From a virus, in IMG/VR virus record IMGVR_UViG_3300020377_000033, positions 1 to 23,308 of that record: 23,308 bases of DNA, one strand, 5' to 3'. Position 1 is the first letter of the stretch, and every line of letters starts with the position of its first letter. The notes beneath the pieces were generated by a model, which saw only the letters and a list, made by a program, of their open reading frames with translations, searched no databases and was not told the origin of the DNA. Positions 3,343 to 20,338 of this stretch are shown here, piece after piece. A program made the translations under genes and the position numbers.

Positions 3343-3586
3343 AAAGTCTCAAAAGTCCTTAAAAAACTGGACTAAACAGAAGTGGCGCACCAAGTCTGGC
3401 AAGCCCAGCACCCAAGGCAAAAAAGCCACGGGTGAGCGTTATCTTCCTGAAAAGGCCATCAAGTCTTTATCCGACAAAGAGTATGCCGCGACTACGCGAA
3501 AAAAACGCGCAGATACCAAGAAGGGTAAGCAACACTCAAAGCAACCCAAGAAAGTTGCCAAGAAAACGTCGAGGCATCGAAAGTAA
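3332..3586 (+). CDS. tiny basic protein, RYLPEKAI...EYAATTRKKR family
   Basis: 84 aa from a GTG at 3332, overlapping the end of the previous gene by 11 bases. Key segments are SLKNWTKQKWRTKSGKPS, GERYLPEKAIKSLSDKEYAA, TTRKKRADTKKGKQ and a Lys-rich tail. I recognise this pattern (Trp-x2-Gln-Lys-Trp, then RYLP, then AAT-RKKR) as a recurring short family of phages and some large DNA viruses, possibly DUF5872; its function is unknown. GTG is the only start that keeps the N-terminal LKKSQKSLKNW intact. Confidence 0.7.
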   Translation: MALKKSQKSLKNWTKQKWRTKSGKPSTQGKKATGERYLPEKAIKSLSDKEYAATTRKKRADTKKGKQHSKQPKKVAKKTSRHRK

Positions 3587-3855
3587 TGCGGATGTATTAC
3601 AAGTCTGGCGGCAAGGTCAATAAAAAGTCCATGTCGTGTAACAAGCCAAAGCGAACGCCCAGCCACGCCAAAAAGAAGTTTATGGTCAAGGCATGCGAGG
3701 ATGGCAAAGAAAAAATTATCCGCTATGGCGACAAGAATATGAAGATCAAGAAGAGCCAGCCGGGGCGGCGCAAGTCCTTCCGTGCCAGACACAAGTGCGA
3801 CTCTAAGCCGCCAAGCAAGATGTCTGCTCGTTACTGGTCCTGCAAGAACTGGTGA
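3586..3855 (+). CDS. tiny basic Cys-containing protein, ARYWSCKNW motif
   Basis: 89 aa, overlapping the previous stop by one base. It begins MRMYYKSGGKVNKKSMS, close to the start of the 2972 protein, then has SHAKKKFMVKACEDGKEKII and a C-terminal block RRKSFRARHKCDSKPPSK followed by ARYWSCKNW. The C-terminal block is a motif I recall from many marine phages and cyanophages. C18, C37, H69, C71 and C86 could bind a metal, but their spacing is not a standard finger. Function is unknown. Confidence 0.72.
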   Translation: MRMYYKSGGKVNKKSMSCNKPKRTPSHAKKKFMVKACEDGKEKIIRYGDKNMKIKKSQPGRRKSFRARHKCDSKPPSKMSARYWSCKNW

Positions 3856-6399: not shown

Positions 6400-7788
6400 A
6401 TGGCCTTGGTTGTTGCTGATCGCGTAAAAGAAACCACTACTACGACAGGCACGGGGGCTATTACGCTTGCCGGCGCGGAGACTAACTTTGTTACGTTTTC
6501 GTCTGCGTTGTCCAATGGTGACACAACTTACTACGCCATTATCGATGACACCAATAACGCCTTTGAGGTAGGGCTAGGTACGTTTTCGTCTGGCGGCAAC
6601 TCTATAACGCGGACCACGGTCCTTGCTAGCTCTAACAGCGGCTCTGCTGTTAACTTGTCAGCAGGAACCAAGGAAGTGTTTGTTAACTACCCTGCTGGAA
6701 AAGCAGTGTTTCTTGACGCCTCTGGAGATGCTAATTTTGCTGGGGCTGTCAATGTCACCAGCACATCCGCCCTCAAACTTCCTGTGGGCACAACCGGACA
6801 GCGCCCAACACCGGCTCAAGGGCAGATTAGGTACAACAGCACTACGTCTGGATTTGAGGGTTACAACGGGTCTGCGTGGGGGTCTATTGGTGCTCAATTC
6901 GCTTATACCAGAACTAGCGCCACGGCCACGTCCGGCCAGACCACGTTTTCTGCAACATATACCGTAGGGTATGTAGACGTTTACCTTAATGGAGCCAAGC
7001 TGGTTGTAGGGACAGATGTTACCGCAACCAACGGGTCTTCCGTCGTTCTTGCCTCTGGAGCTACAACCGGCGACTCGGTAGAGATCATCGCTTACGAGAC
7101 GTTTGCCGTAGCCAATGCACTGCTGGCGGCAAACAATCTGTCTGACGTAGCAAGTGCGGTAACAGCACTGTCTAATCTAGGCGTAACGTCCACCGCGGCG
7201 GAACTAAACATCCTAGATGGCGTGACCTCTACTACGGCAGAGTTAAACATCCTTGATGGTGTCACCTCTACTACGGCAGAGCTAAACATTTTAGATGGCG
7301 TTACTTCCACCGCGTCGGAACTAAACATTCTGGATGGGGTGACGGCCACAACGGCTGAGATTAACTATCTCGATATTACGACTCTCGGCACGTCTCAGGC
7401 GAGCAAGGCAGTCACCGCCGACGCAAATGGCGTAGTGACATTCGACAACGGGATATCGGAAGAATATAACGCCGTGTCATCTAGCTCTAATGCTACGGCG
7501 GTAAACCTGCGTGACGGCACTAACTTTAGCCACACGCTCACAGAAAACACCACGTTTACCTTTAGCAACCCAGCCGCCAGCGGCAAGGTATCTGCTTTTA
7601 CGCTGAAGATCGTACAGGACGGAAGTGCTTCTGGTTACTCCGTGACATGGCCCGGATCAGTCGATTGGCCTGCGGCTACAGCACCTACGTTAACCGCTAC
7701 GGCTAACGCGGTCGATTACTTCGTGTTTATCACGCACGACGGTGGCACTACCTACTACGGCTTTACGGCGGGACAAGCTCTGGGATGA
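6400..7788 (+). CDS. tail fibre 1 with NILDGV repeats
   Basis: 462 aa. Residues 1 to about 108 form a domain beginning MALVVADRVKETTTTTGTGA that recurs at the start of the fibre at 12035 and is probably the virion-attachment end. A short stretch (PVGTTGQRPTPAQGQIRYNS, about residues 128-147) is common in phage fibres. Residues 263-327 are five 13-residue repeats of the form TSTxAELNILDGV, followed by the joint EINYLDITTLGTS...ASKAVTAD and a beta-rich C-terminus (FSHTLTENTTFTFSNPAASG, then YYGFTAGQALG). Trimeric beta-fibre structure is expected from the family. The stop overlaps the glycine-rich gene (ATGA at 7785), as in T-even gp37/gp38 order. Confidence 0.8.
   Translation: MALVVADRVKETTTTTGTGAITLAGAETNFVTFSSALSNGDTTYYAIIDDTNNAFEVGLGTFSSGGNSITRTTVLASSNSGSAVNLSAGTKEVFVNYPAGKAVFLDASGDANFAGAVNVTSTSALKLPVGTTGQRPTPAQGQIRYNSTTSGFEGYNGSAWGSIGAQFAYTRTSATATSGQTTFSATYTVGYVDVYLNGAKLVVGTDVTATNGSSVVLASGATTGDSVEIIAYETFAVANALLAANNLSDVASAVTALSNLGVTSTAAELNILDGVTSTTAELNILDGVTSTTAELNILDGVTSTASELNILDGVTATTAEINYLDITTLGTSQASKAVTADANGVVTFDNGISEEYNAVSSSSNATAVNLRDGTNFSHTLTENTTFTFSNPAASGKVSAFTLKIVQDGSASGYSVTWPGSVDWPAATAPTLTATANAVDYFVFITHDGGTTYYGFTAGQALG
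7186..7380 (+). repeat. five 39-bp in-frame repeats (TSTxAELNILDGV)
   Basis: Units start at 7186, 7225, 7264, 7303 and 7342; the last is degenerate (ends INYLDIT). Codons differ between units at synonymous sites, so the array is old or under selection against identity. It lengthens the fibre shaft; related units occur at 10127-10243. Confidence 0.9.
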
Positions 7789-9485
7789 GTCGATCTTCCG
7801 TAAAAATCATCCAAGCCGCCGCCGGAGCCGGCGGAGCCGGTATGGAGTATGCGGATGGTAGCAGAGGCGGCGGTGCAAGCGGCTCAACTACCACCGTAGG
7901 CAACGATACCGTAGAGGCTTTTACTTCAAGCGGAACTCTGACCATCACTCAAGAGGGGTGGTGCACTGTATTGCTGGTAGGCGGTGGCGGCTCTGGTGGA
8001 GGGGCGCAATCTAACTATACCAACTGGGGTGTCGCGGATGAACGGTATAAGGGGTATGCAGGTGGCGGCGGAGGCGGAGGCGTTGTCGCCAGACTAGTTT
8101 ATTTCGACAAAGGAACTTACAACGTAACTGTAGGTGCTGGAGCCGCCACAACAAGCGGGGCTTCTATAGGCGCTACAGGTAGTACGTCCAAGATAGAAAC
8201 AAGCGTTGGCGGCACTATTAATGGCCCCGGCGGAGACAGTGATTTTTTGACTGTTAATGGCGGGGGTGGCGGTTGTGGCACGGGTGGAGGCAGTAATTGG
8301 AACTCTACAGGAGGCGCTAATCCCGGTGGTGGCACAGGTTACTATGGTGGCAGTCATCCAAAAGGCGTCCTAGATGAAGGACGAATTGAAGCGGACAACT
8401 CTGGCTATTCAGGTGGCGGTTCACCCGGATCAAGCTCTAAATTTGACAGTAATGCAAGCTGGGGAAGTAACGCTCCTGACGGCCCTTATTGGGCTATTGA
8501 GTCATCCTCCAACAAATACTACGGCGGAGCGGGAGCAGGCAACCACGGTGGCCCCGGCTACCTTCAAAATGCAAAAACTGGCGGAAACGGCGGCGGCGGA
8601 AACGGCGGCTATTACAACGGCAGTTATGGATCGCCTACTGCTGGGACTGATGGCTTAGGCGGCGGCGGAGGCGGTGGCGCTCCGGGCAATTCCACACAAA
8701 ACCAAGGAGGGGCCGGAGGGTCTGGGTTGGTTGTTGTGCGGTTTGGCGAAGACTTACTTAGGGCCGACACGCACAAGATGGTGTATTGCTCTGGCAAAAT
8801 CTCCCTCAAAGATCAGCTGAGGGCGGTTAAGATGAGAAATCCGCAAAACGTGGATGTGTCTTACTCCAACATGGAGTACTCAACTTATCAGACACTCTCC
8901 ACATCCATGAGTTCTTGGAACGGATCATCTTACACGGTTAGCTACATCCCTTCATATTACGACGGAAACACCGCGGGCTATATCGGAACGCACTACGATG
9001 AGTTTTTACTCAGCAATGGTGTAATGACATTTGAGTTTAATTTTCGCTCTAGAGATTCTGCCCAAACGGAAAGACCCGTGTTGAGCTTGGGAACCGCCAG
9101 CCAACACATTGATATATACACGGATCAGTATAGGTGTTTTGTCAATTGTGTTTCTGGTAGCTCTAGTTTAGGGACAAGACAGACTGCGGCTGTAGGCACA
9201 GGCCGTAATTATGGTATGACGCCGATGGTTATTATTGTGGACACAAACAACAACAAAATACTGGCGATGAACGCAAGTAGCGTCATTGAAGACTTAGGCA
9301 CTGCTTATGGCTTTTCGTTTGCGTCTTCTGGAAACAAGCTGTACCTCTCGCATAATCAAACGGGATCTCGTTCTACAACCTCGAGCCAATACGCGCCCTC
9401 TTCCTTGAGAATGATTGCGGATGCTGTTTATTCAACGGGCGATACAATCACGCCGCTGGCGTTTCCAAACCACACGCTCTATTAG
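7785..9485 (+). CDS. glycine-rich adhesin-like protein 1 with extra C-terminal domain
   Basis: 566 aa, coupled to fibre 1 by a four-base overlap. After EAFTSSGTLTITQEGWCTV and LLVGGGGSGGG the protein is dominated by Gly runs to about residue 320, including GTYNVTVGAGA, and the domain closes with GGAGGSGLVVVRFGED. This is the Gly_rich pattern of receptor-binding proteins such as the S16-type gp38 adhesin, where polyglycine helices present variable loops. Residues from about 329 to the end form a non-glycine domain (HKMVYCSGKISLKDQLRAVK, VMTFEFNFRSRDS, NKLYLSHNQTG) not present in adhesins 2 and 3. It is probably the tip that contacts the host; the receptor cannot be read from sequence. Confidence 0.7.
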   Translation: MSRSSVKIIQAAAGAGGAGMEYADGSRGGGASGSTTTVGNDTVEAFTSSGTLTITQEGWCTVLLVGGGGSGGGAQSNYTNWGVADERYKGYAGGGGGGGVVARLVYFDKGTYNVTVGAGAATTSGASIGATGSTSKIETSVGGTINGPGGDSDFLTVNGGGGGCGTGGGSNWNSTGGANPGGGTGYYGGSHPKGVLDEGRIEADNSGYSGGGSPGSSSKFDSNASWGSNAPDGPYWAIESSSNKYYGGAGAGNHGGPGYLQNAKTGGNGGGGNGGYYNGSYGSPTAGTDGLGGGGGGGAPGNSTQNQGGAGGSGLVVVRFGEDLLRADTHKMVYCSGKISLKDQLRAVKMRNPQNVDVSYSNMEYSTYQTLSTSMSSWNGSSYTVSYIPSYYDGNTAGYIGTHYDEFLLSNGVMTFEFNFRSRDSAQTERPVLSLGTASQHIDIYTDQYRCFVNCVSGSSSLGTRQTAAVGTGRNYGMTPMVIIVDTNNNKILAMNASSVIEDLGTAYGFSFASSGNKLYLSHNQTGSRSTTSSQYAPSSLRMIADAVYSTGDTITPLAFPNHTLY

Positions 9486-9955: not shown

Positions 9956-10708
9956 ATGACTAACGCGAGAGTTGTAGCGGATTTGGGTACAGTCACCAGT
10001 ACTCCCGCAGAAATTAACCTTCTAGATGGATCGTCTTCTGGGACGATAGTGAACGCAAAGGGCGTTATCTATGGCGGTTCTGGAGAGGTTAACGCGACTA
10101 CGCTTCAGATTGCAGGCACTGCGATTACCTCAACTGCGGCAGAGTTAAACATCCTTGACGGCGTTACGGCTTCTACAGCAGAAATCAACATCCTTGATGG
10201 CGTTACGTCTACGGCAACAGAAATTAACTATGTAGACATTACCACTTTAGGCACTTCTCAAGCGTCAAAAGCCGTAACAGCAGATTCAAATGCCAAGGTT
10301 AAGTTTATTGGCACCACGTCACTTGCTGAAATAATCGAAAAGGTAGACATTCCGACAAGCACCACAGGCACAATTAACTTTGATTTTTTGACGCAGGCAG
10401 TGCAGTTCTACAACACCGACCAGACGGCAAACAGAACAATTAACTTCCGTGGGGATGGCTCTAACAGCCTAAACAGTATTATGGCTACCGGTGAAAGCAT
10501 GACCTGTGCAGTGTTAATGAAGCAGGGCGGGTCAGCTTACTACCTTAACGCTTATCAGGTGGATGGCTCTAGTGTTACCCCAGAGTGGTCTGGTGGGACT
10601 GCGGCATCTGCTGGTAACGCGAACTCTGTGGATTCGTATGTGTTCACTGTTATTAAGACAGGTAACGCGGCGTTTACAGTTTTTGCTAGCCAGACGCAGT
10701 TCGCATAA
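9956..10708 (+). CDS. tail fibre 2, lacking the shared N-terminal domain
   Basis: 250 aa. It starts directly with repeat-like sequence (ADLGTVTSTPAEINLLDG), then three NILDGV-type units at residues 58-96, the joint EINYVDITTLGTS...ASKAVTAD, and a C-terminal domain (FIGTTSLAEIIEKVDIPTST, TANRTINFRGDGS, GESMTCAVLMKQGGSAYYLN, VTPEWSGGTAASAG, ending FTVFASQTQFA). The C-terminal domain is closely similar to that of fibre 3. The attachment domain of fibres 1 and 3 is absent. TAATG joins the gene to the glycine-rich gene at 10708. Confidence 0.75.
   Translation: MTNARVVADLGTVTSTPAEINLLDGSSSGTIVNAKGVIYGGSGEVNATTLQIAGTAITSTAAELNILDGVTASTAEINILDGVTSTATEINYVDITTLGTSQASKAVTADSNAKVKFIGTTSLAEIIEKVDIPTSTTGTINFDFLTQAVQFYNTDQTANRTINFRGDGSNSLNSIMATGESMTCAVLMKQGGSAYYLNAYQVDGSSVTPEWSGGTAASAGNANSVDSYVFTVIKTGNAAFTVFASQTQFA
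10127..10243 (+). repeat. three 39-bp in-frame repeats (TSTAAELNILDGV type)
   Basis: Units at 10127-10165, 10166-10204 and 10205-10243, homologous to the five units in fibre 1. The last ends in INYVDIT and runs into the shared joint. Confidence 0.85.
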
Positions 10709-11646
10709 TGCCTATGCTCGGTACAGCCGGGGGAGGCTCTGCTCGCGGATTTAACCCCGGAGGCGGCAAGCTAGAGGTCACTGGCGGTGACGCTGTTTAC
10801 AACAACGGCGGCTTTACCTACAGATACTTTAAGTCCAGTGGCACCTTGTCTGTATCCGGCGGAACACTTACAGATGTTGCGTATGTCATTATTGGTGGCG
10901 GCGGCGGTGGCGGCGGCGGATTTGCAATATGTGCGACTGGCGCAGGTGGCGGATCAGGCGCTTTTCGATGGCTTTCTCCCGGCAACGAAATCAGCGTGGC
11001 AGAGGGCAGTTACGCTGTCACGGTAGGCGCAGGTGGAAGTGCTGGCGCAGGCAGTTCTTATAACCGCGGCGGAAATGGCGGGGACTCATCGTTTAATAGT
11101 GTTACGTCGAATGGCGGTGCAGGAGGAGCCACATGGGGCGGTGGTCCTATGCCGGGAACAAGCAACGGTAACGCCTCGGGTTCTGGCGGCGGTACGGCGG
11201 GAGCTTATTCCGCTGGCGGGTCTGGTGGCGCTTATGGCGACAATGGCGGTTACGGTAATGGTAATGGAACTAGTAACGGCACAGCAGGCTCTGGCGGCGG
11301 TGGCGGCGGGAGAAAGGGATATGACGGCGGTAACGGTCTCGGCGGTAATGGTTATTCTTCTGGCGGCTCCGGTGGCCCCGGCGGCATTGTTAACTGGTAT
11401 GGCTCCAACCTAAACGGAGCAGAACAAAGCGGGTCAGACTACTATTACGCAGGTGGCGGTGCTGGTGGTGGTACCGGCGGTGCTGGCACAGGCGGTGTGG
11501 GTCACGGTGGCAACGGTGGTAGCGGCGCAGGTGGCACTAATTCTGGCGGTGGTGGCGGTGGTGCTACCAACTACGGTTGTTATTCAAGCGCCTCTGGCGG
11601 CGCTGGCGGTTCGGGCATTGTCATCATTAAGCACCCGGAGGTGTAG
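10708..11646 (+). CDS. glycine-rich adhesin-like protein 2
   Basis: 312 aa, overlapping fibre 2 by one base. A short leader (LGTAGGGSARGFNPGGGKLE) precedes the strand motif FTYRYFKSSGTLSVSGG, then VAYVIIGGGGGGGGG and repeated Gly runs with interspersed Asn, Ser and Tyr. SYAVTVGAGGSAGAG is a landmark, and the domain closes GGAGGSGIVIIKHPEV with nothing after it. The Gly content and pattern match the adhesin-like proteins at 7785 and 13126. GGC/GGT codons dominate, which creates long antisense frames that are artefacts. Confidence 0.7.
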   Translation: MPMLGTAGGGSARGFNPGGGKLEVTGGDAVYNNGGFTYRYFKSSGTLSVSGGTLTDVAYVIIGGGGGGGGGFAICATGAGGGSGAFRWLSPGNEISVAEGSYAVTVGAGGSAGAGSSYNRGGNGGDSSFNSVTSNGGAGGATWGGGPMPGTSNGNASGSGGGTAGAYSAGGSGGAYGDNGGYGNGNGTSNGTAGSGGGGGGRKGYDGGNGLGGNGYSSGGSGGPGGIVNWYGSNLNGAEQSGSDYYYAGGGAGGGTGGAGTGGVGHGGNGGSGAGGTNSGGGGGGATNYGCYSSASGGAGGSGIVIIKHPEV

Positions 11647-12034: not shown

Positions 12035-13126
12035 ATGGCTCTCGTAATTAAGGATCGGGTTAAAGAAACCACAACAACGACAGGCACAGGCGCTTTGTCA
12101 CTGGCTGGGGCGGAGTCTAACTTTGTCACGTTTTCTTCTGTCTTGTCTAACGGCGACACGACTTACTACGGAATTGTTGACACGAGTAACACTGCGTTTG
12201 AGGTTGGCTTGGGCACTTATGCTAGCTCTGGAAACACCCTGACTAGAACGACGGTTTTTGCTAGCTCAAATAGCGGTTCGGCAGTGGACCTATCGGCAGG
12301 CTCAAAGATTGTATTTTGCGCGTACCCGTCAGAAAAAGCCGTCTTTGAGGACGCTACAGGCAAGGTAACTATTGACGATAATGTCGGCATTGAAAGCGGT
12401 CTTATAGACCTCAAGAATAGCGGCACGGCATCAAGAATTAAGTTTTATTGTGAAGCCGCAAATGCTCACGCTCAGACGGTACAGGGTGCGCCTCATGCTT
12501 TGGGGGCAACTAACACATTGGTGTTGCCCGCTACGGGGAGCAACCTTGTTTCTGACACTGCAACTCAGACACTTACCAACAAGACGCTTACGTCGCCTAA
12601 GATCAACGATAGCACGGCCATAACGGCCACCGGCACCGAAATTAACTATGTAGACATTACCACGCTGGGTACGTCAGAGGCGTCGAAGGCTGTCACGGCG
12701 GACGCCAGTGCCAAGGTTAATTTTATCGGCACGACCTCTGTTGCCGAGATGATCGAAAAGGTCACCGTACAAACTAGCACTACAGGCACAATCAATTTCG
12801 ACCTGTTGACGCAAGCCGTGGAGCTTTATACAGCAAACCAAACGGCAAACAGGACAATTAACTTTCGCGGAAACGGCTCAACCACCCTTAACAGTGTTAT
12901 GGCCGTGGGAGAAAGCATGACGGCGGCGGTTTTGATGACGCAGGGCGGGTCTGCCTATTATCTCAACAGCTACCAAGTAGACGGGTCAAGCGTTACTCCT
13001 GAGTGGTCAGGTGGAACAGCGCCCTCTTCCGGCAACGCATCATCTATTGATTCGTACACATTCAGCATCATCAAAACGGCGGATGCCACATTCACCGTCT
13101 TGGCTAGCCAGACGCAGTACGCATAA
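12035..13126 (+). CDS. tail fibre 3, mosaic of fibres 1 and 2
   Basis: 363 aa. Residues 1 to about 108 (MALVIKDRVKETTTTTGTGA onward) parallel the start of fibre 1. The middle (DLKNSGTASRIKFYCEAANA, then GATNTLVLPATGSN and TQTLTNKTLTSPKI) is a common phage fibre segment. The joint EINYVDITTLGTS...ASKAVTAD and the C-terminal domain (TANRTINFRGNGS, GESMTAAVLMTQGGSAYYLN, ending FTVLASQTQYA) parallel fibre 2. NILDGV units are missing. TAATG couples it to the adhesin at 13126. Confidence 0.78.
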   Translation: MALVIKDRVKETTTTTGTGALSLAGAESNFVTFSSVLSNGDTTYYGIVDTSNTAFEVGLGTYASSGNTLTRTTVFASSNSGSAVDLSAGSKIVFCAYPSEKAVFEDATGKVTIDDNVGIESGLIDLKNSGTASRIKFYCEAANAHAQTVQGAPHALGATNTLVLPATGSNLVSDTATQTLTNKTLTSPKINDSTAITATGTEINYVDITTLGTSEASKAVTADASAKVNFIGTTSVAEMIEKVTVQTSTTGTINFDLLTQAVELYTANQTANRTINFRGNGSTTLNSVMAVGESMTAAVLMTQGGSAYYLNSYQVDGSSVTPEWSGGTAPSSGNASSIDSYTFSIIKTADATFTVLASQTQYA

Positions 13127-13986
13127 TGCCCCTCTTCTCTACGATTGGCGCGGCATCCCTAAAGGGCTTTAACTCCGGATCGGCACCTCTTCTCATGGAC
13201 GCGCTTATCATTGCTGGCGGTGGTGGCGGAGATAACGGCGCGCCACTTAGCACCGCTAATGGCGGTGGAGGTGCTGGCGGTTACAGGGAATTCACAGATC
13301 TTGATGTGGTCCTTGGAAATTCATACACCGTGACCATTGGGGCCGGGGGGTCTGCTGGGTCTAACGGCTCGACATCTTCTTTTTATGGTTACAACACAAC
13401 GGGCGGCGGCGATTCTGAGGATAGTGGCGGCTCCGGAGGTGGTGGAAACGGCGCTTTAGGTGGTGGCTCCAATGGCGGGTCGGGCAATGCTGGCTCGTAC
13501 AACCCATCTGAGGGCAATGCTGGCGGAGCAGGAAACGGCGGCGGCACTTCGGGCGCTGGCGGTGGCGGCGGTGGCGCTGGGCAAGCAGGCTCTACCCCGA
13601 CTGTTAGCGGCGGCGGCATTGGGCAGTTTGGTAACGGTGGTAGCGGAACGACAAGCTCCATAACCGGCTCTGCTGTGGCTCGCGCAGGCGGCGGAGGCGG
13701 TGGCGTTTCGTTTAACGGATACCAAGGGCAAGGCGGCGCTGGTGGCGGCGGAATTGGCGGCATACCCAACAGCACAGCCGGATCAGGTGGCACCAATACA
13801 GGCTCCGGTGGCGGTGGGGCCGGGGTAGATGGCTCATACGGCGGCGGTGGCGGCTCGGGCGGCTCAGGCGTTGTTATCATCAGGACGCTTCTAACAGCAA
13901 GCGCCACCTCTGGAAGCCCAACCCAGACCACTGACGGAGGCTACAAAATATATACGTTTACCGGCTCTGGAAGCATTACGTTTTAA
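13126..13986 (+). CDS. glycine-rich adhesin-like protein 3, permuted ends
   Basis: 286 aa, overlapping fibre 3 by one base. It begins MPLFSTIGAASLKGFNSGSA and goes straight into DALIIAGGGGG, SYTVTIGAGGSAGSNG and long Gly runs, closing GGSGGSGVVIIRTLL. A 30-residue tail then ends GGYKIYTFTGSGSITF. The strand that precedes the first Gly run in adhesins 1 and 2 (FTSSGTLTI, FKSSGTLSV) is missing there and appears instead at the C-terminus. Role as for the other glycine-rich proteins. Confidence 0.7.
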   Translation: MPLFSTIGAASLKGFNSGSAPLLMDALIIAGGGGGDNGAPLSTANGGGGAGGYREFTDLDVVLGNSYTVTIGAGGSAGSNGSTSSFYGYNTTGGGDSEDSGGSGGGGNGALGGGSNGGSGNAGSYNPSEGNAGGAGNGGGTSGAGGGGGGAGQAGSTPTVSGGGIGQFGNGGSGTTSSITGSAVARAGGGGGGVSFNGYQGQGGAGGGGIGGIPNSTAGSGGTNTGSGGGGAGVDGSYGGGGGSGGSGVVIIRTLLTASATSGSPTQTTDGGYKIYTFTGSGSITF

Positions 13987-13995
13987 GGTGAAATT

Positions 13996-14916
13996 GTGAA
14001 TCGTTTACCTATCATTTTTTTGTGTTTGCTTTGGCCCACTCTGTCTCTGGCGGAAGAAACAACGACGAATATAAACACGACATCGTCATCCACCAGCACA
14101 AGTACCAATGCCAATAACAACAATAACGTCAATACGACGACTTATACGGGCACGTCTACGAACGCTAACGTCAACACAAACACAAATGTTAACACGTCAG
14201 TCATTGACTCGACTTCAAGCGCAATTAATAACAACACCAACCTCAATCAAAATATTAACAGCACCAATTACAATGGGTTGATCCGGAACATAAACAACAC
14301 CAACTCAACTAATAACAATACCAATTTCAACACAAACACAAATAACAGCACTAACACCAACAACAACACATCGGTCAGCACTGCCACGAACATTAACCAG
14401 AATACCAGCACAAGCAATAGTGTTAGCTTGTCGACCTCCGACACAACCATTAATCAGACGAGTGACTCTAGGTCAGAGGTGAACTCAAACAATAACAACG
14501 TAAACACTAATAACAGTAATTCAACTAGCAACTCGACCAGTGACTCGACTCAACGAATCACGCAGGACATAAACTCGCCGCCGCCAAGCGCGATAGCACC
14601 CTCGATTGGCAGTAGCTACAGCCAAGACCTTTGTACGACGGGCATATCAGGTGCAGTGCAGACCCAGATACTAGGGTTTTCAACTGGTAAGTCTGTGCGA
14701 GATAAAAACTGCGAAAGAATTAAGCTGAGCAAGACCCTGTACGACATGGGTATGCGTGTGGCCGCAGTCAGTCTCATGTGCCAAGACTACAGGGTGTGGT
14801 CTTCTATGATGGATGCCGGTACGCCGTGCCCCATAGAGGGCCAGATAGGCGATGAGGCTAAGGTTTTGTGGGAAACCTATCCAGAGCGGGTGCCAACGCC
14901 AGAAAGGCGGATGTGA
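13996..14916 (+). CDS. exported Asn/Thr/Ser-rich disordered protein with Cys domain
   Basis: 306 aa from GTG at 13996, with AAGGTG at 13985-13990 as ribosome site. The N-terminus (MNRLPIIFLCLLWPTLSLAE) is a clear Sec signal peptide, cleavage likely after LSLA; no lipobox is present. Residues about 22-185 are almost only Asn, Thr and Ser with some Val, Ile and Asp, and should be disordered or stacked beta. From about residue 200 a folded domain follows with C213, C239, C262 and C278 (DKNCERIKLSKTLYDMGMRV, MCQDYRVW, AGTPCPIEGQIGDEA). I recall this C-terminal pattern from uncultured marine phages, without function. Four Cys in an exported domain fit two periplasmic disulfides. Confidence 0.75.
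   Translation: MNRLPIIFLCLLWPTLSLAEETTTNINTTSSSTSTSTNANNNNNVNTTTYTGTSTNANVNTNTNVNTSVIDSTSSAINNNTNLNQNINSTNYNGLIRNINNTNSTNNNTNFNTNTNNSTNTNNNTSVSTATNINQNTSTSNSVSLSTSDTTINQTSDSRSEVNSNNNNVNTNNSNSTSNSTSDSTQRITQDINSPPPSAIAPSIGSSYSQDLCTTGISGAVQTQILGFSTGKSVRDKNCERIKLSKTLYDMGMRVAAVSLMCQDYRVWSSMMDAGTPCPIEGQIGDEAKVLWETYPERVPTPERRM
14059..14550 (+). repeat. A/C-rich low-complexity tract coding Asn/Thr/Ser
   Basis: AAC, AAT, ACA, ACG, AGC and TCA-type codons dominate, so the coding strand is strongly A- and C-rich with few G, unlike the flanks. No fixed repeat unit is seen; runs such as AATAACAACAAT are short and irregular. Confidence 0.85.
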
Positions 14917-14917
14917 C

Positions 14918-16783
14918 GTGAAGCGCCTCGCGAGTGCCTTGCTTCTATTTTACGCGGTTGTTGGGCACGGTCAGACACTAACGTCTGAAAACCTTCTTAG
15001 CCTAACGGAAGCGTCAAATAACGTGGCCTTCAACGCTACAGCGGGCACATACAGATATAGCTTTCAAACGGGTAATGTGACTACGGTTGGTGTGTTGCCT
15101 ATATATGACCCACTGCAGATCCTGACTCTGAACTGGTCGTTTGAGGCGTTATACAATTGCAACAACTCGATTGGTGGCTTCTGCGCCGATCCAAATGGCA
15201 CTGAGGATGAGATACAGGCATTTTTAGCTGTAGGCAATGAAGCCGGTGACACTGATGCTAGAGAAGTATTCAACCGGCGAGATTTCAATCAAGAATGGCA
15301 GACCTTTAGCGGTGCGGAGGTGTATGACTTTGGTAGCGCCTACGAGGCGGTGAGCTTACGAATTGACGGCATAGATCGAGGGTTTTGGGCTGGAAACTAC
15401 GGTCCAGCCGTACGAAATCCATCTGTGGTTGCTATATACACCCCGATAAACACAAATCCCGTTATTTTGCCTGATTGCTCAAACCCGCTGAATGACCCGT
15501 CTTGCGCGGGTTATGCAGACGCTCTTGCCGCACAGCAAGTGGTAGTTGTTGAAGAGCCAAAGCCTCCGACTTTCGCTGAGCAAGCAACGAATGTGGTTTT
15601 TGGCGATTCTCCTGACGATTTTCTGTACCTCGATCAGCCCGACAGAACGGGCAAGCCTAGAGCATTGAAGCAGGCAGAGCCCCCGCAGGCGTACCAAGAT
15701 ACATCGCAAGAGACGATTATGTTTGGCGACCCTCGTGCGGCCATGCCGCCCTTGGATGGTGAGCCACCTCCTGAAGCTAGACCTCGAATTAACGATGCGC
15801 CACCTGTGGTTGAGGAGCCAGCGGAAATCGTTGAGCCTTTGCCTAGCGTTGAAAAGGAAAGGAAGGTTGAGCCAGTAAGAGAAGAGAAAAGGCTGAGACA
15901 GGCAGAGCCAGAGGAAATCATTGCAGAGGTTGCAAGGGTTACAAGGCGTCCAAGCCCGGAAGTTATGCAAGCGAGGCAAGAGGTGCCGATAGAGCGCCCT
16001 GTTAAGGAAAGGCAGGCTGTTCCTATGGAGGTGGCGGCGACAACACGCTCAGAACCTGTTGCGGAGTCTGTTCGCACGATTGCAAGGCCCGCCGTTGATG
16101 TGGTTGGAATAGCTCTGTCTCTTGCCAAGGAGCAATCAGTACAATCAACACAATCAAACAAGTCAGGAAGTTCGTCGCAAAAATCAGAGCCAATGCAACA
16201 GATAGCGCAGGTCATTGGTCAGTCAGGCGCTGATAGTTACTGGCAGATGGCGACCGAACAAACCAACATCAGCCAGACGTTAATACAGCTTTCGCAACAA
16301 CAACAGTCAGACAGTATGACCTCCGTTGATGTGGCCCCACCAGCGCAAGCGCAATTTGAAGAAGACTTCAATGATGCATTGGCTACAGGTCAAAGTGTCG
16401 GTCAGTTTCTAAGCTCACAGCCGCCAGACTTTAGCCGCTTTGAAATTGATGAGCCTACGATCCAAGAGCAGAGAATGGTTCAAAAGGCCACCGTGGCTAT
16501 TAAAACTATGAGCCAAGCGCAGGTAGAGCAAAGTATTGATAGTCAGCTGGACACTTTGGCTGATACAGGTGGCTTTACAGATCAATCTGTTGCCGTGTTC
16601 TTGATATCCAATAATTCTGACTTCAGTCAATATCAGGACGTAAACCTGTCTGACCGCGACGAATTTTATAAAAACACTCAGGTGTATCCAAACAACGCCC
16701 CACGAGTAGATCCTTTTGGTGTGCTTAGGCTTGGTGGTTCAGACACATATAAAGACTTGGTGGATATTCAATGGCAGAGATAG
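14918..16783 (+). CDS. exported Pro/Glu-rich multidomain protein of unknown function
   Basis: 621 aa from GTG at 14918, one base after the previous stop. The frame is open upstream to an ATG at 14852, but starting at 14918 puts a signal peptide (KRLASALLLFYAVVGHGQ) at the N-terminus. Residues 20-175 form a beta-rich domain with C81 and C89, and C187 and C196 follow (PDCSNPLNDPSCAGY). Residues about 200-395 are rich in Pro, Glu, Arg and Val (VEEPAEIVEPLPSVEKERK) like periplasm-spanning linkers. The end is helical with two similar units, ALATGQSVGQFLSSQPPDFS and a later TDQSVAVFLISNNSDFSQY. No enzymatic motif is seen. It overlaps the coiled-coil membrane gene by 13 bases. Confidence 0.72.
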   Translation: MKRLASALLLFYAVVGHGQTLTSENLLSLTEASNNVAFNATAGTYRYSFQTGNVTTVGVLPIYDPLQILTLNWSFEALYNCNNSIGGFCADPNGTEDEIQAFLAVGNEAGDTDAREVFNRRDFNQEWQTFSGAEVYDFGSAYEAVSLRIDGIDRGFWAGNYGPAVRNPSVVAIYTPINTNPVILPDCSNPLNDPSCAGYADALAAQQVVVVEEPKPPTFAEQATNVVFGDSPDDFLYLDQPDRTGKPRALKQAEPPQAYQDTSQETIMFGDPRAAMPPLDGEPPPEARPRINDAPPVVEEPAEIVEPLPSVEKERKVEPVREEKRLRQAEPEEIIAEVARVTRRPSPEVMQARQEVPIERPVKERQAVPMEVAATTRSEPVAESVRTIARPAVDVVGIALSLAKEQSVQSTQSNKSGSSSQKSEPMQQIAQVIGQSGADSYWQMATEQTNISQTLIQLSQQQQSDSMTSVDVAPPAQAQFEEDFNDALATGQSVGQFLSSQPPDFSRFEIDEPTIQEQRMVQKATVAIKTMSQAQVEQSIDSQLDTLADTGGFTDQSVAVFLISNNSDFSQYQDVNLSDRDEFYKNTQVYPNNAPRVDPFGVLRLGGSDTYKDLVDIQWQR

Positions 16784-17241
16784 AGTTTGCAGGGCTGAAG
16801 GTTTCGGGCGGTAAATTACTGCTTGTAATACCGCTCCTAGGAAGCATTTTAGCCGCTATGTGGGGTGGTTTTGAACTGTATCAACGCCTATTGACTGCCG
16901 AGCAGGCTGTGACGGAATACGTCTCACCCGACTTTAGTTCTTACGATGAAGCTCTAGCCGTCATTGACACAAAGATGGGCAATGTTGAGTCACTGACCAC
17001 TGCTCTTGAGAGAGAGCTAGACCGGCTACAAGCTGATATAGACGTTGTTGAGTCAATCGCAAGGAGCACAGATGACACCGTTGCCGAAGCCACCAGAGAG
17101 CTTCGGGACGATGTTTACGCCCTTGAAGAGCGAGTCAATGACAGTCTAAGAGACATAAATAACGAATTAAGAAGTATGCGAGATGATCTAGAAGAGCGCA
17201 TAGAAAGGATTCTAGATAACCCCCTGAATACAGAGGAGTGA
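16771..17241 (+). CDS. membrane-anchored coiled-coil protein
   Basis: 156 aa. After MAEIEFAGLKVSGGK comes one transmembrane segment (about residues 15-35, LLLVIPLLGSILAAMWGGF), then ELYQRLLTAEQAVTEYVSPD and a long charged heptad-like helix to the end (ELDRLQADIDVVESIA, ALEERVNDSLRDINNELRS). I recall close relatives in marine phages, uncharacterised. The topology, a short N-terminus, one span and a long coiled coil, is that of inner-membrane spanin subunits (Rz), but the family itself is not a known spanin and no overlapping Rz1-like lipoprotein is present. A role at the envelope, perhaps with the exported proteins upstream, is inferred. Confidence 0.72.
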   Translation: MAEIEFAGLKVSGGKLLLVIPLLGSILAAMWGGFELYQRLLTAEQAVTEYVSPDFSSYDEALAVIDTKMGNVESLTTALERELDRLQADIDVVESIARSTDDTVAEATRELRDDVYALEERVNDSLRDINNELRSMRDDLEERIERILDNPLNTEE

Positions 17242-17248
17242 GGGTAGC

Positions 17249-17479
17249 ATGGACCAAGGCATGATTAACACAATCATCACCCTCGGTGCAGGTGTTTTCG
17301 GGTGGCTTATGAAGACTTTATGGGACTCCGTCAGGAGGCTGGAAGCGAATGTCAGCGGGATAGAGATTCGTGTTGCCGGTGACTATGTCAGGCGAGACGA
17401 GTTTCGGCAGGACATACAGCGCATCTTTGAAAAGCTCGACACAATTGAAGCCAAGATAGATTCTAAGGCTGATAAGTAA
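17249..17479 (+). CDS. small membrane protein with C-terminal helix
   Basis: 76 aa. One transmembrane segment spans about residues 5-24 (MINTIITLGAGVFGWLMKTL), followed by WDSVRRLEANVSGIEIR, DYVRRDEFRQDIQRIFEKLD and a Lys-rich end (AKIDSKADK). Phages carry many small proteins of this plan, annotated variously as holin-like or unknown. It follows another membrane coiled-coil gene by seven bases and overlaps the next start by one. Holin accessory or membrane anchor are possible; neither is shown. Confidence 0.68.
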   Translation: MDQGMINTIITLGAGVFGWLMKTLWDSVRRLEANVSGIEIRVAGDYVRRDEFRQDIQRIFEKLDTIEAKIDSKADK

Positions 17480-19245: not shown

Positions 19246-19647
19246 ATGTTACAAGCACTGATTGGCCCGGTTACGGGGCTTCTGGATAAGTTCATACCGG
19301 ATGCGGATGAAAAAGCGAAGCTCGCGCACGAGATTGCGACGATGTCGGAGCGACATGCCCAAGAGCTTGCCAAGGGCCAGATTGAGATTAACAAGGCTGA
19401 AGCGGCACACAAGTCAATGTTTGTCGCAGGCTGGAGGCCGTTTGTCGGCTGGACTTGCGGCGTTGCTTTGGCTTGGCACTTTGTGGGTCAGCCTATTGCT
19501 GTTTTTGTTATTACATTTGCTGGTGTGGACGCCCCTCCGTTACCTGTATTTGAGATGGAAAGCCTGTTGACCGTGCTTCTTGGCATGCTGGGACTGGGTG
19601 GCTTAAGGACGTTTGAAAAGACTAAGCAAGTAGCAAGGGAGAAGTAA
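19246..19647 (+). CDS. holin of the 3-TM superfamily (GTA-type)
   Basis: 133 aa with an excellent ribosome site (AAGGAGG just before 19246). A charged amphipathic N-terminus (about residues 1-55, KAKLAHEIATMSERHAQELA) leads into KSMFVAGWRPFVGWTCGVAL, the family signature, and hydrophobic segments at about 58-80, 82-95 and 104-122 (LLTVLLGMLGLGGLRTFEK at the end). This matches the 3TM holins found in gene transfer agents and many marine phages. It would open the inner membrane to let the endolysin at 19988 reach the wall. Confidence 0.88.
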   Translation: MLQALIGPVTGLLDKFIPDADEKAKLAHEIATMSERHAQELAKGQIEINKAEAAHKSMFVAGWRPFVGWTCGVALAWHFVGQPIAVFVITFAGVDAPPLPVFEMESLLTVLLGMLGLGGLRTFEKTKQVAREK

Positions 19648-19650
19648 GCG

Positions 19651-19791
19651 ATGATTGAACCGATAAAGGCCGTTGGGAAGGTTTGTAAGTCTCGTGTCAT
19701 GCACCTTACTGAGTGGCAAGCCGGGGCGATGTTTATTTTTGCAGTCGTGTTAAATATTGTCTTGGTGGCGGTTTTTGCGCTTCAGCAATGA
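19651..19791 (+). CDS. 46-aa single-span membrane protein in the lysis cassette
   Basis: ATG at 19651, three bases after the holin stop, with AAGGGAGAAG as ribosome site; TGA at 19789-19791. A basic N-terminus (MIEPIKAVGKVCKSRV) is followed by one hydrophobic span at about residues 25-44 (GAMFIFAVVLNIVLVAVFAL). Its stop overlaps the next ATG by four bases. Good ribosome site, tight spacing and membrane span support a real gene. It could be an antiholin or second holin; no family is recognised. Confidence 0.65.
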   Translation: MIEPIKAVGKVCKSRVMHLTEWQAGAMFIFAVVLNIVLVAVFALQQ

Positions 19792-19991
19792 TCACCCCTG
19801 AGTTATTAGATCGCTGGCGGATACTTCCGCGAGTGGTTATGTTTGTAATGATTGTTATGACCTATCGGGTTGTCGAGTGGTTTATGGATCTGTCCGATCC
19901 GAACCCCGAGCAAGCGGCCTTGGTCAGCGTGATGACTGGGGCACTAACCGGCGCTTTCGGCCTGTTCTTGGGGCAGGGAAAGAAAGAATGA
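19788..19991 (+). CDS. 67-aa membrane protein, holin-like
   Basis: ATG at 19788 overlaps the preceding stop (ATGA). The frame is open upstream, but the earlier part would lie inside the 46-aa gene, so this start is chosen. The protein (MITPELLDRWRILPRVVMFV start) has two hydrophobic segments at about 13-31 and 42-62, with WFMDLSDPNPEQAALVSVMT between and GAFGLFLGQGKKE at the end. The pattern VEWFM...DP...QAA-VS...GLF recalls small proteins next to endolysins in marine podoviruses. Probable holin or lysis regulator. Confidence 0.7.
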   Translation: MITPELLDRWRILPRVVMFVMIVMTYRVVEWFMDLSDPNPEQAALVSVMTGALTGAFGLFLGQGKKE

Positions 19992-20338
19992 AAGAGTTTA
20001 AGTATTTCAAGCTGTCCGACTTTGACTGTCAGGAGACTGGCGAAAACGAGATGGACCATGATTTCATCATGGAGCTAGATGAATTGCGCGAATCTTGCGG
20101 CTTTCCGTTTATTATTACCTCTGGCTACAGGTCAAATAGCCACAGTCTAGAGGCAAAGAAAAATAAGCCCGGAATGCACGCCTATGGCATTGCCGCAGAC
20201 ATTGCGGTGCGTAGCGGCGTGGAGAGAATGACCATTGTTCAAAGGGCAATAGAGCAGGAATTTAATGGCATAGGAGTGGCTAAGTCATTTGTTCATGTAG
20301 ACAAACGGCAATCTACGCCAGTGATGTGGGTGTACTGA
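19988..20338 (+). CDS. M15 family peptidase, probable endolysin
   Basis: 116 aa; ATG at 19988 overlaps the previous stop, and the upstream in-frame extension lies wholly inside the previous gene. The protein has FKLSDFDCQETGENEM at the start, PFIITSGYRSNSHS (about 40-53), HAYGIAADIAV with H64 and D71, and FVHVDKR with H103. These are the zinc ligands and SGYRS signature of M15A-type DD-carboxypeptidases/endopeptidases, which cleave peptidoglycan cross-links. No signal peptide or wall-binding domain is seen, so release through the holin at 19246 is expected. The length is at the small end but complete for a single catalytic domain. Confidence 0.9.
   Translation: MKEFKYFKLSDFDCQETGENEMDHDFIMELDELRESCGFPFIITSGYRSNSHSLEAKKNKPGMHAYGIAADIAVRSGVERMTIVQRAIEQEFNGIGVAKSFVHVDKRQSTPVMWVY

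Follow-up and report, generated by a model that had tools for sequence, protein, structure and literature searches.

What is the role of a run of adjacent phage genes whose predicted products are exported or membrane-anchored, and which of these genes belong together? This question is raised by a locus in the viral record IMGVR_UViG_3300020377_000033, analyzed here over a stretch of 23,308 nucleotides (the window), for which an earlier sequence-based annotation (the original prediction) had proposed an envelope-spanning protein set. The window belongs to a contig of 61,353 bases, itself included in a 38-contig genome bin; the presence of genes for a terminase large subunit, a portal and a DNA-ejection protein beyond the window identifies it as a tailed-phage contig.

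Results

Gene content of the locus

The locus comprises genes A–D, all of them (as well as the lysis genes of the window) on the plus strand, and their predicted coordinates, including a 13-base overlap of B and C, proved correct. Gene A (13996..14916) encodes an exported protein with a signal peptide followed by an Asn/Ser/Thr-rich stretch (74% N/S/T, residues 21–195) and a helical C-terminal domain of ~100 amino acids with four Cys residues (14566..14913). This domain, with its invariant Cys and its NCER and CQD motifs, is conserved more strongly than any other part of the module, remaining constant in several relatives (e.g., HTVC115P and MW202481) where the N-rich part is short or absent; AlphaFold2 predicts helices at its positions 47–104 (pLDDT about 80–92), i.e., the end of the domain is helical. 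Protein A matches a profile of unknown function, phrog_20531 (6.8e-12 for the window, 2.8e-18 for HTVC023P); neither A nor B matched a Pfam or NCBIfam family above the cut-off, the A fold gave no PDB match by sequence or by structure, and BFVD matches of A were limited to its own relatives. By the crude rules applied throughout for signal-peptide, lipobox and span calls (simple rules, as opposed to trained predictors), a type-I signal peptide is present in 105/105 complete A relatives, a lipobox in 1/105 and a hydrophobic C-terminal tail in 31/105. The A domain may reside at the outer membrane, as hinted by a lipoprotein of the roseophage CRP-207 that scores as a relative of this domain (7.6e-6). 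Small proteins with an A-like Cys pattern are found directly before A in roseophage-type genomes (L027:7771-8031, L028:886-1101, L026:1728-1940); those of L026 and L027 satisfy the lipobox rule, and the A profile scores the one in L026 at 7.6e-6.

Gene B (14918..16783) starts with GTG, at the same position where its relatives begin, and encodes a 621-aa exported protein. Its predicted anatomy (a beta region containing Cys residues, then a linker rich in P/E/R, and helices at the end) is in agreement with the signal peptide, the composition and a low-confidence AlphaFold2 model (strands at 68–175, helices at 441–620, mean pLDDT 44), which was too poor for a fold search. The Cys residues are at positions 81, 89, 187 and 196; the Cys-pair motif CSNPLNDPSCAG(Y) (15476..15511) is present in the window protein as a single copy, CSNPLNDPSCAGY, and in 1–8 copies in 49/89 complete B relatives vs. 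2/1224 background ORFs. The linker (residues 206–420, 15533..16177), defined by composition, contains 17% P, 14% E and 12% K+R in residues 206–330 and 9% P, 12% E and 13% K+R in residues 331–420. The last 75 residues (16556..16780, ending in GGSDTYKDLVDIQWQR) form a conserved C-terminal domain common to most of the family, with a usual end pattern MV..QY. The N-terminal beta domain seems to be exchangeable between relatives, one of which shows a weak match to CBM_4_9 (carbohydrate-binding) and another to NIDO (nidogen-like); a weak match of B to F-box sugar-binding (E=0.065) is only a hint of a relation. No Pfam family was detected for B at E<=0.1. A type-I signal peptide was called in 90/90 complete B relatives and a lipobox in 7/90.

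Gene C (16771..17241) encodes a protein with one N-terminal transmembrane span, a coiled coil and a conserved C-terminal NPL. The predicted one-span coiled-coil architecture is upheld by a single N-terminal hydrophobic span in 71/72 relatives, and an NP[LM] end occurs in only 0.25% of background ORFs of similar size. The similarity of C to an Rz-like profile (phrog_7686) reached only E=0.056, and its Pfam matches, weak and of coiled-coil type, were set aside as generic noise. The position of gene D (17249..17479; phrog_462, 1.4e-13), which encodes a small one-span protein, varies: D follows C in the clade of the window, precedes A in CRP-810 and MW202675, and is absent elsewhere. It is an optional neighbor outside of the constant module. 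Two other small proteins recur close to C. In many large-genome loci (L046:13123-13611 and 17 others), C is directly followed by a gene for a protein of 160 aa with one span at its C-terminus (phrog_32327, function unknown), which could be an unrecognized holin. A YRYPCQ(D/N)P.NW motif is shared by small exported or membrane proteins at L065:12235-12552, L075:6350-6544, L028:2828-3016 and L052:1852-2088, situated close after C in the first three.

Conservation and spread of the module

A search of viral contigs with B yielded 17 close relatives, and a search with the A domain gave over 600 viral stretches; the 80 that were retained include contigs of 200–350 kb. Carriers of the module, which number in the hundreds, are aquatic tailed phages: podoviruses, roseophages, one autographivirus and one T4-like pelagimyophage, in addition to the 200–350-kb contigs; A is encoded by the cultured Pelagibacter phages HTVC115P, HTVC023P, HTVC033P, HTVC202P, Baldr and T4-like Mosig, as well as by the cultured Roseobacter phages CRP-207 and CRP-810. 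Eighty-six loci include the whole of B plus 450 bases or more of downstream DNA; C directly follows B in 71 of them, and a C-profile score within 3 kb is found in 13 more. Of the resulting 84 loci one is doubtful: the weak match in HTVC115P (L018, 6e-5) is probably a different small membrane gene, with the real C a few genes further on. The two loci without C are both on short contigs. The main variation in order is an insert of three exported genes between B and C in one clade (L079:11086-12535, similar in L081, L087, L090, L091, L093 and L105), the tested members of which gave no Pfam match.

Since the A-B-C arrangement recurs in diverse phages, it is not due to chance. Thus, the predicted unbroken run of four genes holds for A, B and C, which are kept together across very different phages, but not for D; scattering of the genes among relatives, which would have spoken against a common unit, was looked for and not seen. 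Judged from these comparisons of sequence and gene order, the true unit is A-B-C. Protein distances covary (B-C 0.77, A-B 0.68, A-C 0.53, p=0.0005), a pattern that fits joint inheritance and perhaps contact between the proteins, or may be a product of shared ancestry only. Small Lys/Arg-rich proteins, alike in pattern, adjoin or lie near the trio in other phages (L026:4228-4506, L027:9757-10050, L022:6965-7237) and are ~10 kb off in the window (3586-3855).

Existing records provide an incomplete picture of these genes. In MW202481, A (L024:8851-9357) and C (L024:10194-10601) were not called and B was named 'transport protein tonB' by the depositors, while C is misnamed lysozyme in CRP-207 and CRP-810, and A is misnamed OmpA family protein in CRP-810 (record errors in these roseophages are at L027:9375-9797 and L026:3292-3873). 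No paper describing the trio was found in the open-licence literature searched, and the pelagiphage isolate papers searched discuss neither these genes nor lysis. The module is genuine and widespread, and apparently no description of it exists.

Genomic setting with respect to lysis genes

The lysis cassette of the window begins 2.0 kb after C with a 3-TM holin (19246..19647; PF11351 6e-22, phrog_3427 holin), followed by a small membrane protein of unknown function (19713..19991; phrog_10198) and an M15 peptidase endolysin (19985..20338; PF08291 3.2e-10, phrog_894 endolysin). Using profiles of six lysis families as markers, we found a density of 1.74 markers per 10 kb within 1 kb of the module vs. 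0.15–0.19 beyond 3 kb (~10-fold). A marker is present within 1 kb of 34% of the modules, as compared to 11% of gene triplets taken as controls from these contigs (28 groups; p=0.007 by sign-flip test, p=0.03 by Wilcoxon test); this triplet control was used as a clearer test than the percentile rank of lysis proximity (0.30 vs. 0.42 expected). The endolysin type (GH19, GH24, M15, SleB or amidase) swaps freely beside the constant module, and the trio adjoins M15 in HTVC023P and a 3-TM holin in Mosig and S28C10. This linkage is frequent but not universal: an annotated endolysin is about 19–22 kb away from the trio in HTVC202P and 13–14 kb away in Baldr, and many large-genome loci contain no recognized lysis gene near the module. 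The neighbors of the trio in Mosig are primase and ribonucleotide reductase genes; in HTVC202P, the trio precedes the terminase.

In at least four relatives, the cassette containing the trio also includes a canonical two-gene spanin. In L065 and L068, the spanin pair directly precedes a GH19 endolysin and A; in L092, it is located just after C (phrog_812 Rz-like, 7e-12) and is followed by GH24; in L079, it is found further down (phrog_812, 4e-12). The trio adds to spanins in these phages and, hence, is not simply a spanin replacement. The Rz family (PF03245) was above the cut-off in 0/35 trio-bearing records. The lipobox rule, which does recognize T7 gp18.7, detected no lipobox protein in the window, HTVC202P or Baldr; this result, together with the near-complete lack of lipoboxes in A and B, bears out the original view that this is not a standard Rz/Rz1 pair. 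By the same rule, the pelagiphages HTVC010P, HTVC011P and HTVC019P, which have no trio, have no lipoprotein either, which means that SAR11 can be lysed without the trio. In a published survey, no spanin was found in 91/677 phages (PMC6139136).

Three probably paralogous glycine-rich genes of the window (7785-9485, 10708-11646, 13126-13986) alternate with genes of ELNILDGVT-type repeats (6400-7788, 9956-10708) or a related protein (12035-13126), an arrangement resembling duplicated tail adhesin sets.

Discussion

Building on the export signals, predicted topology, conserved order and lysis-gene linkage established in this study, we infer, as a preferred yet tentative model, that the products of A, B and C assemble into a complex across the envelope that is linked to lysis and acts late, together with the lysis genes. 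In this model, C would be anchored in the inner membrane and would expose its coiled coil and conserved NPL terminus to the periplasm, where it may meet the conserved C-terminal domain of B; B itself would be secreted to the periplasm, its P/E-rich linker bridging the two end domains. The swappable N-terminal beta domain of B may meet an outer-membrane or cell-wall glycan, and A, also secreted, would be a partner on the outer-membrane side. Most likely, such a complex would help, at lysis, to open the outer envelope or to prime it, working beside holin, endolysin and, where present, spanins. The late envelope action originally proposed is consistent with the trans-envelope anatomy and with a late, often lysis-gene setting. 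The lysis reading is weakened by the trios distant from any recognized lysis gene and by the spanin-bearing trio phages, in which outer-membrane disruption is already covered because canonical spanins are present. A broader and more doubtful extension of this model is that the trio may represent a new class of envelope machine, a three-protein trans-periplasmic device distinct from holin, endolysin and spanin, shared across aquatic phage families, whose action on the outer envelope would come during or ahead of lysis and whose outer domain would be exchangeable and matched to the surface of the host.

The swappable N-terminal domains of B fit host-surface recognition as well as lysis. A somewhat unlikely alternative is superinfection exclusion or surface change, with A and B coating or altering the infected cell and C as their anchor, thus blocking receptors or DNA entry of competitors. 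The export of A and B, the low complexity of A and the weak CBM_4_9 and NIDO matches among B relatives are compatible with this role, as is the position of the trio beside, and not always inside, the lysis genes, as lysis cassettes often host extra envelope genes. Cor and Bor, small envelope extras of lysis cassettes, are single lipoproteins; the trio shares with such extras the adjacency of small envelope genes to lysis genes and differs from them as a conserved three-gene unit. The A-B-C order, strictly kept from podoviruses to a T4-like phage and to very large phages, points to a core function more than to an exclusion gene, and the presence of the module in only 2/389 bacterial genomes argues against a usual prophage moron.

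It is less likely still that A forms a surface fiber for aggregation, exported or anchored by B and C, with a purpose like that of pelagiphage curli. Curli clusters (type VIII secretion; CsgG, CsgF, CsgA/B), described in other pelagiphages and proposed for 'sibling capture' (PMC7029224, PMC9599517), are likewise phage-encoded envelope sets of SAR11 and related phages, and a lysis role was suggested for CsgGF (PMC9004378). The N/S/T-rich stretch of A and the three additional exported genes between B and C in one clade would suit a fiber system. However, CsgG (PF03783) was found in 0/35 trio records (some of which may be fragments) vs. 4/14 genomes in a positive control, and there was no curlin Pfam match or other sequence similarity; the curli link was, therefore, rejected. 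Moreover, it is the 4-Cys domain of A, and not its variable N-rich part, that is constant.

Even less probable is a non-canonical spanin equivalent, with C as the i-spanin and B or A as the outer-membrane part in place of Rz/Rz1. The spanin-like topology originally noted for C (N-terminal span and periplasmic coiled coil) is indeed predicted, and B is long enough to cross the periplasm. In the autographivirus S28C10 (tail fiber, others, holin-like, A, B, C, TerL), the trio, between the holin-like gene and TerL, occupies the Rz/Rz1 place of T7 (tail fiber, holin, TerS, Rz, Rz1, TerL). With two-component spanins (lambda Rz/Rz1, T7 18.5/18.7, T4 PseT.3/PseT.2), the trio shares an inner-membrane coiled coil with an exported partner, adjacent or overlapping late genes, a lysis-cassette setting and periplasmic Cys; it differs by having three proteins instead of two, a much larger B and no lipoprotein to serve as an o-spanin. 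The two-gene spanins found beside it in L065, L068, L079 and L092 weaken the spanin reading of C, since the trio is not the sole envelope-spanning set of these phages. As in unimolecular spanins (T1 gp11), a single exported protein might span the periplasm, and some A proteins have a hydrophobic tail, but the u-spanin pairing of a lipobox with a C-terminal transmembrane domain on one polypeptide was not found, A and B having type-I signal peptides. Spanin replacement, suggested by the T7 synteny and by lipoprotein-less HTVC202P and Baldr, was rejected, as the trio-less controls are also lipoprotein-less and some relatives carry both systems. Virion structural proteins, e.g., fibers, are very improbable, as all A and B have Sec signal peptides, which misfit cytoplasmic assembly, and the Mosig and HTVC202P trios have other neighbors, despite the window trio being between glycine-rich/tail-fiber-like genes and the lysis cassette.

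With TonB, whose name was given to B in one record, B has in common a Pro/Glu-rich linker thought to cross the periplasm; TonB, in contrast to the predicted secreted B, has an uncleaved N-terminal span as an anchor and a TonB C-terminal domain, which was found in none of 48 diverse B proteins.

Overall, the novelty concerns the gene module, which is matched by no known family or system, whereas its mechanism is a proposal. The module is present in hundreds of phage contigs, including those of cultivable SAR11 and roseobacter phages, where its genes have been called hypothetical or misnamed (OmpA, lysozyme, tonB). It bears on the question of how the outer membrane is broken by phages of streamlined marine bacteria, several of which have no recognizable spanin, and its presence in the cultured phages HTVC023P, HTVC202P, Baldr, Mosig and CRP-207 makes its function accessible to testing.
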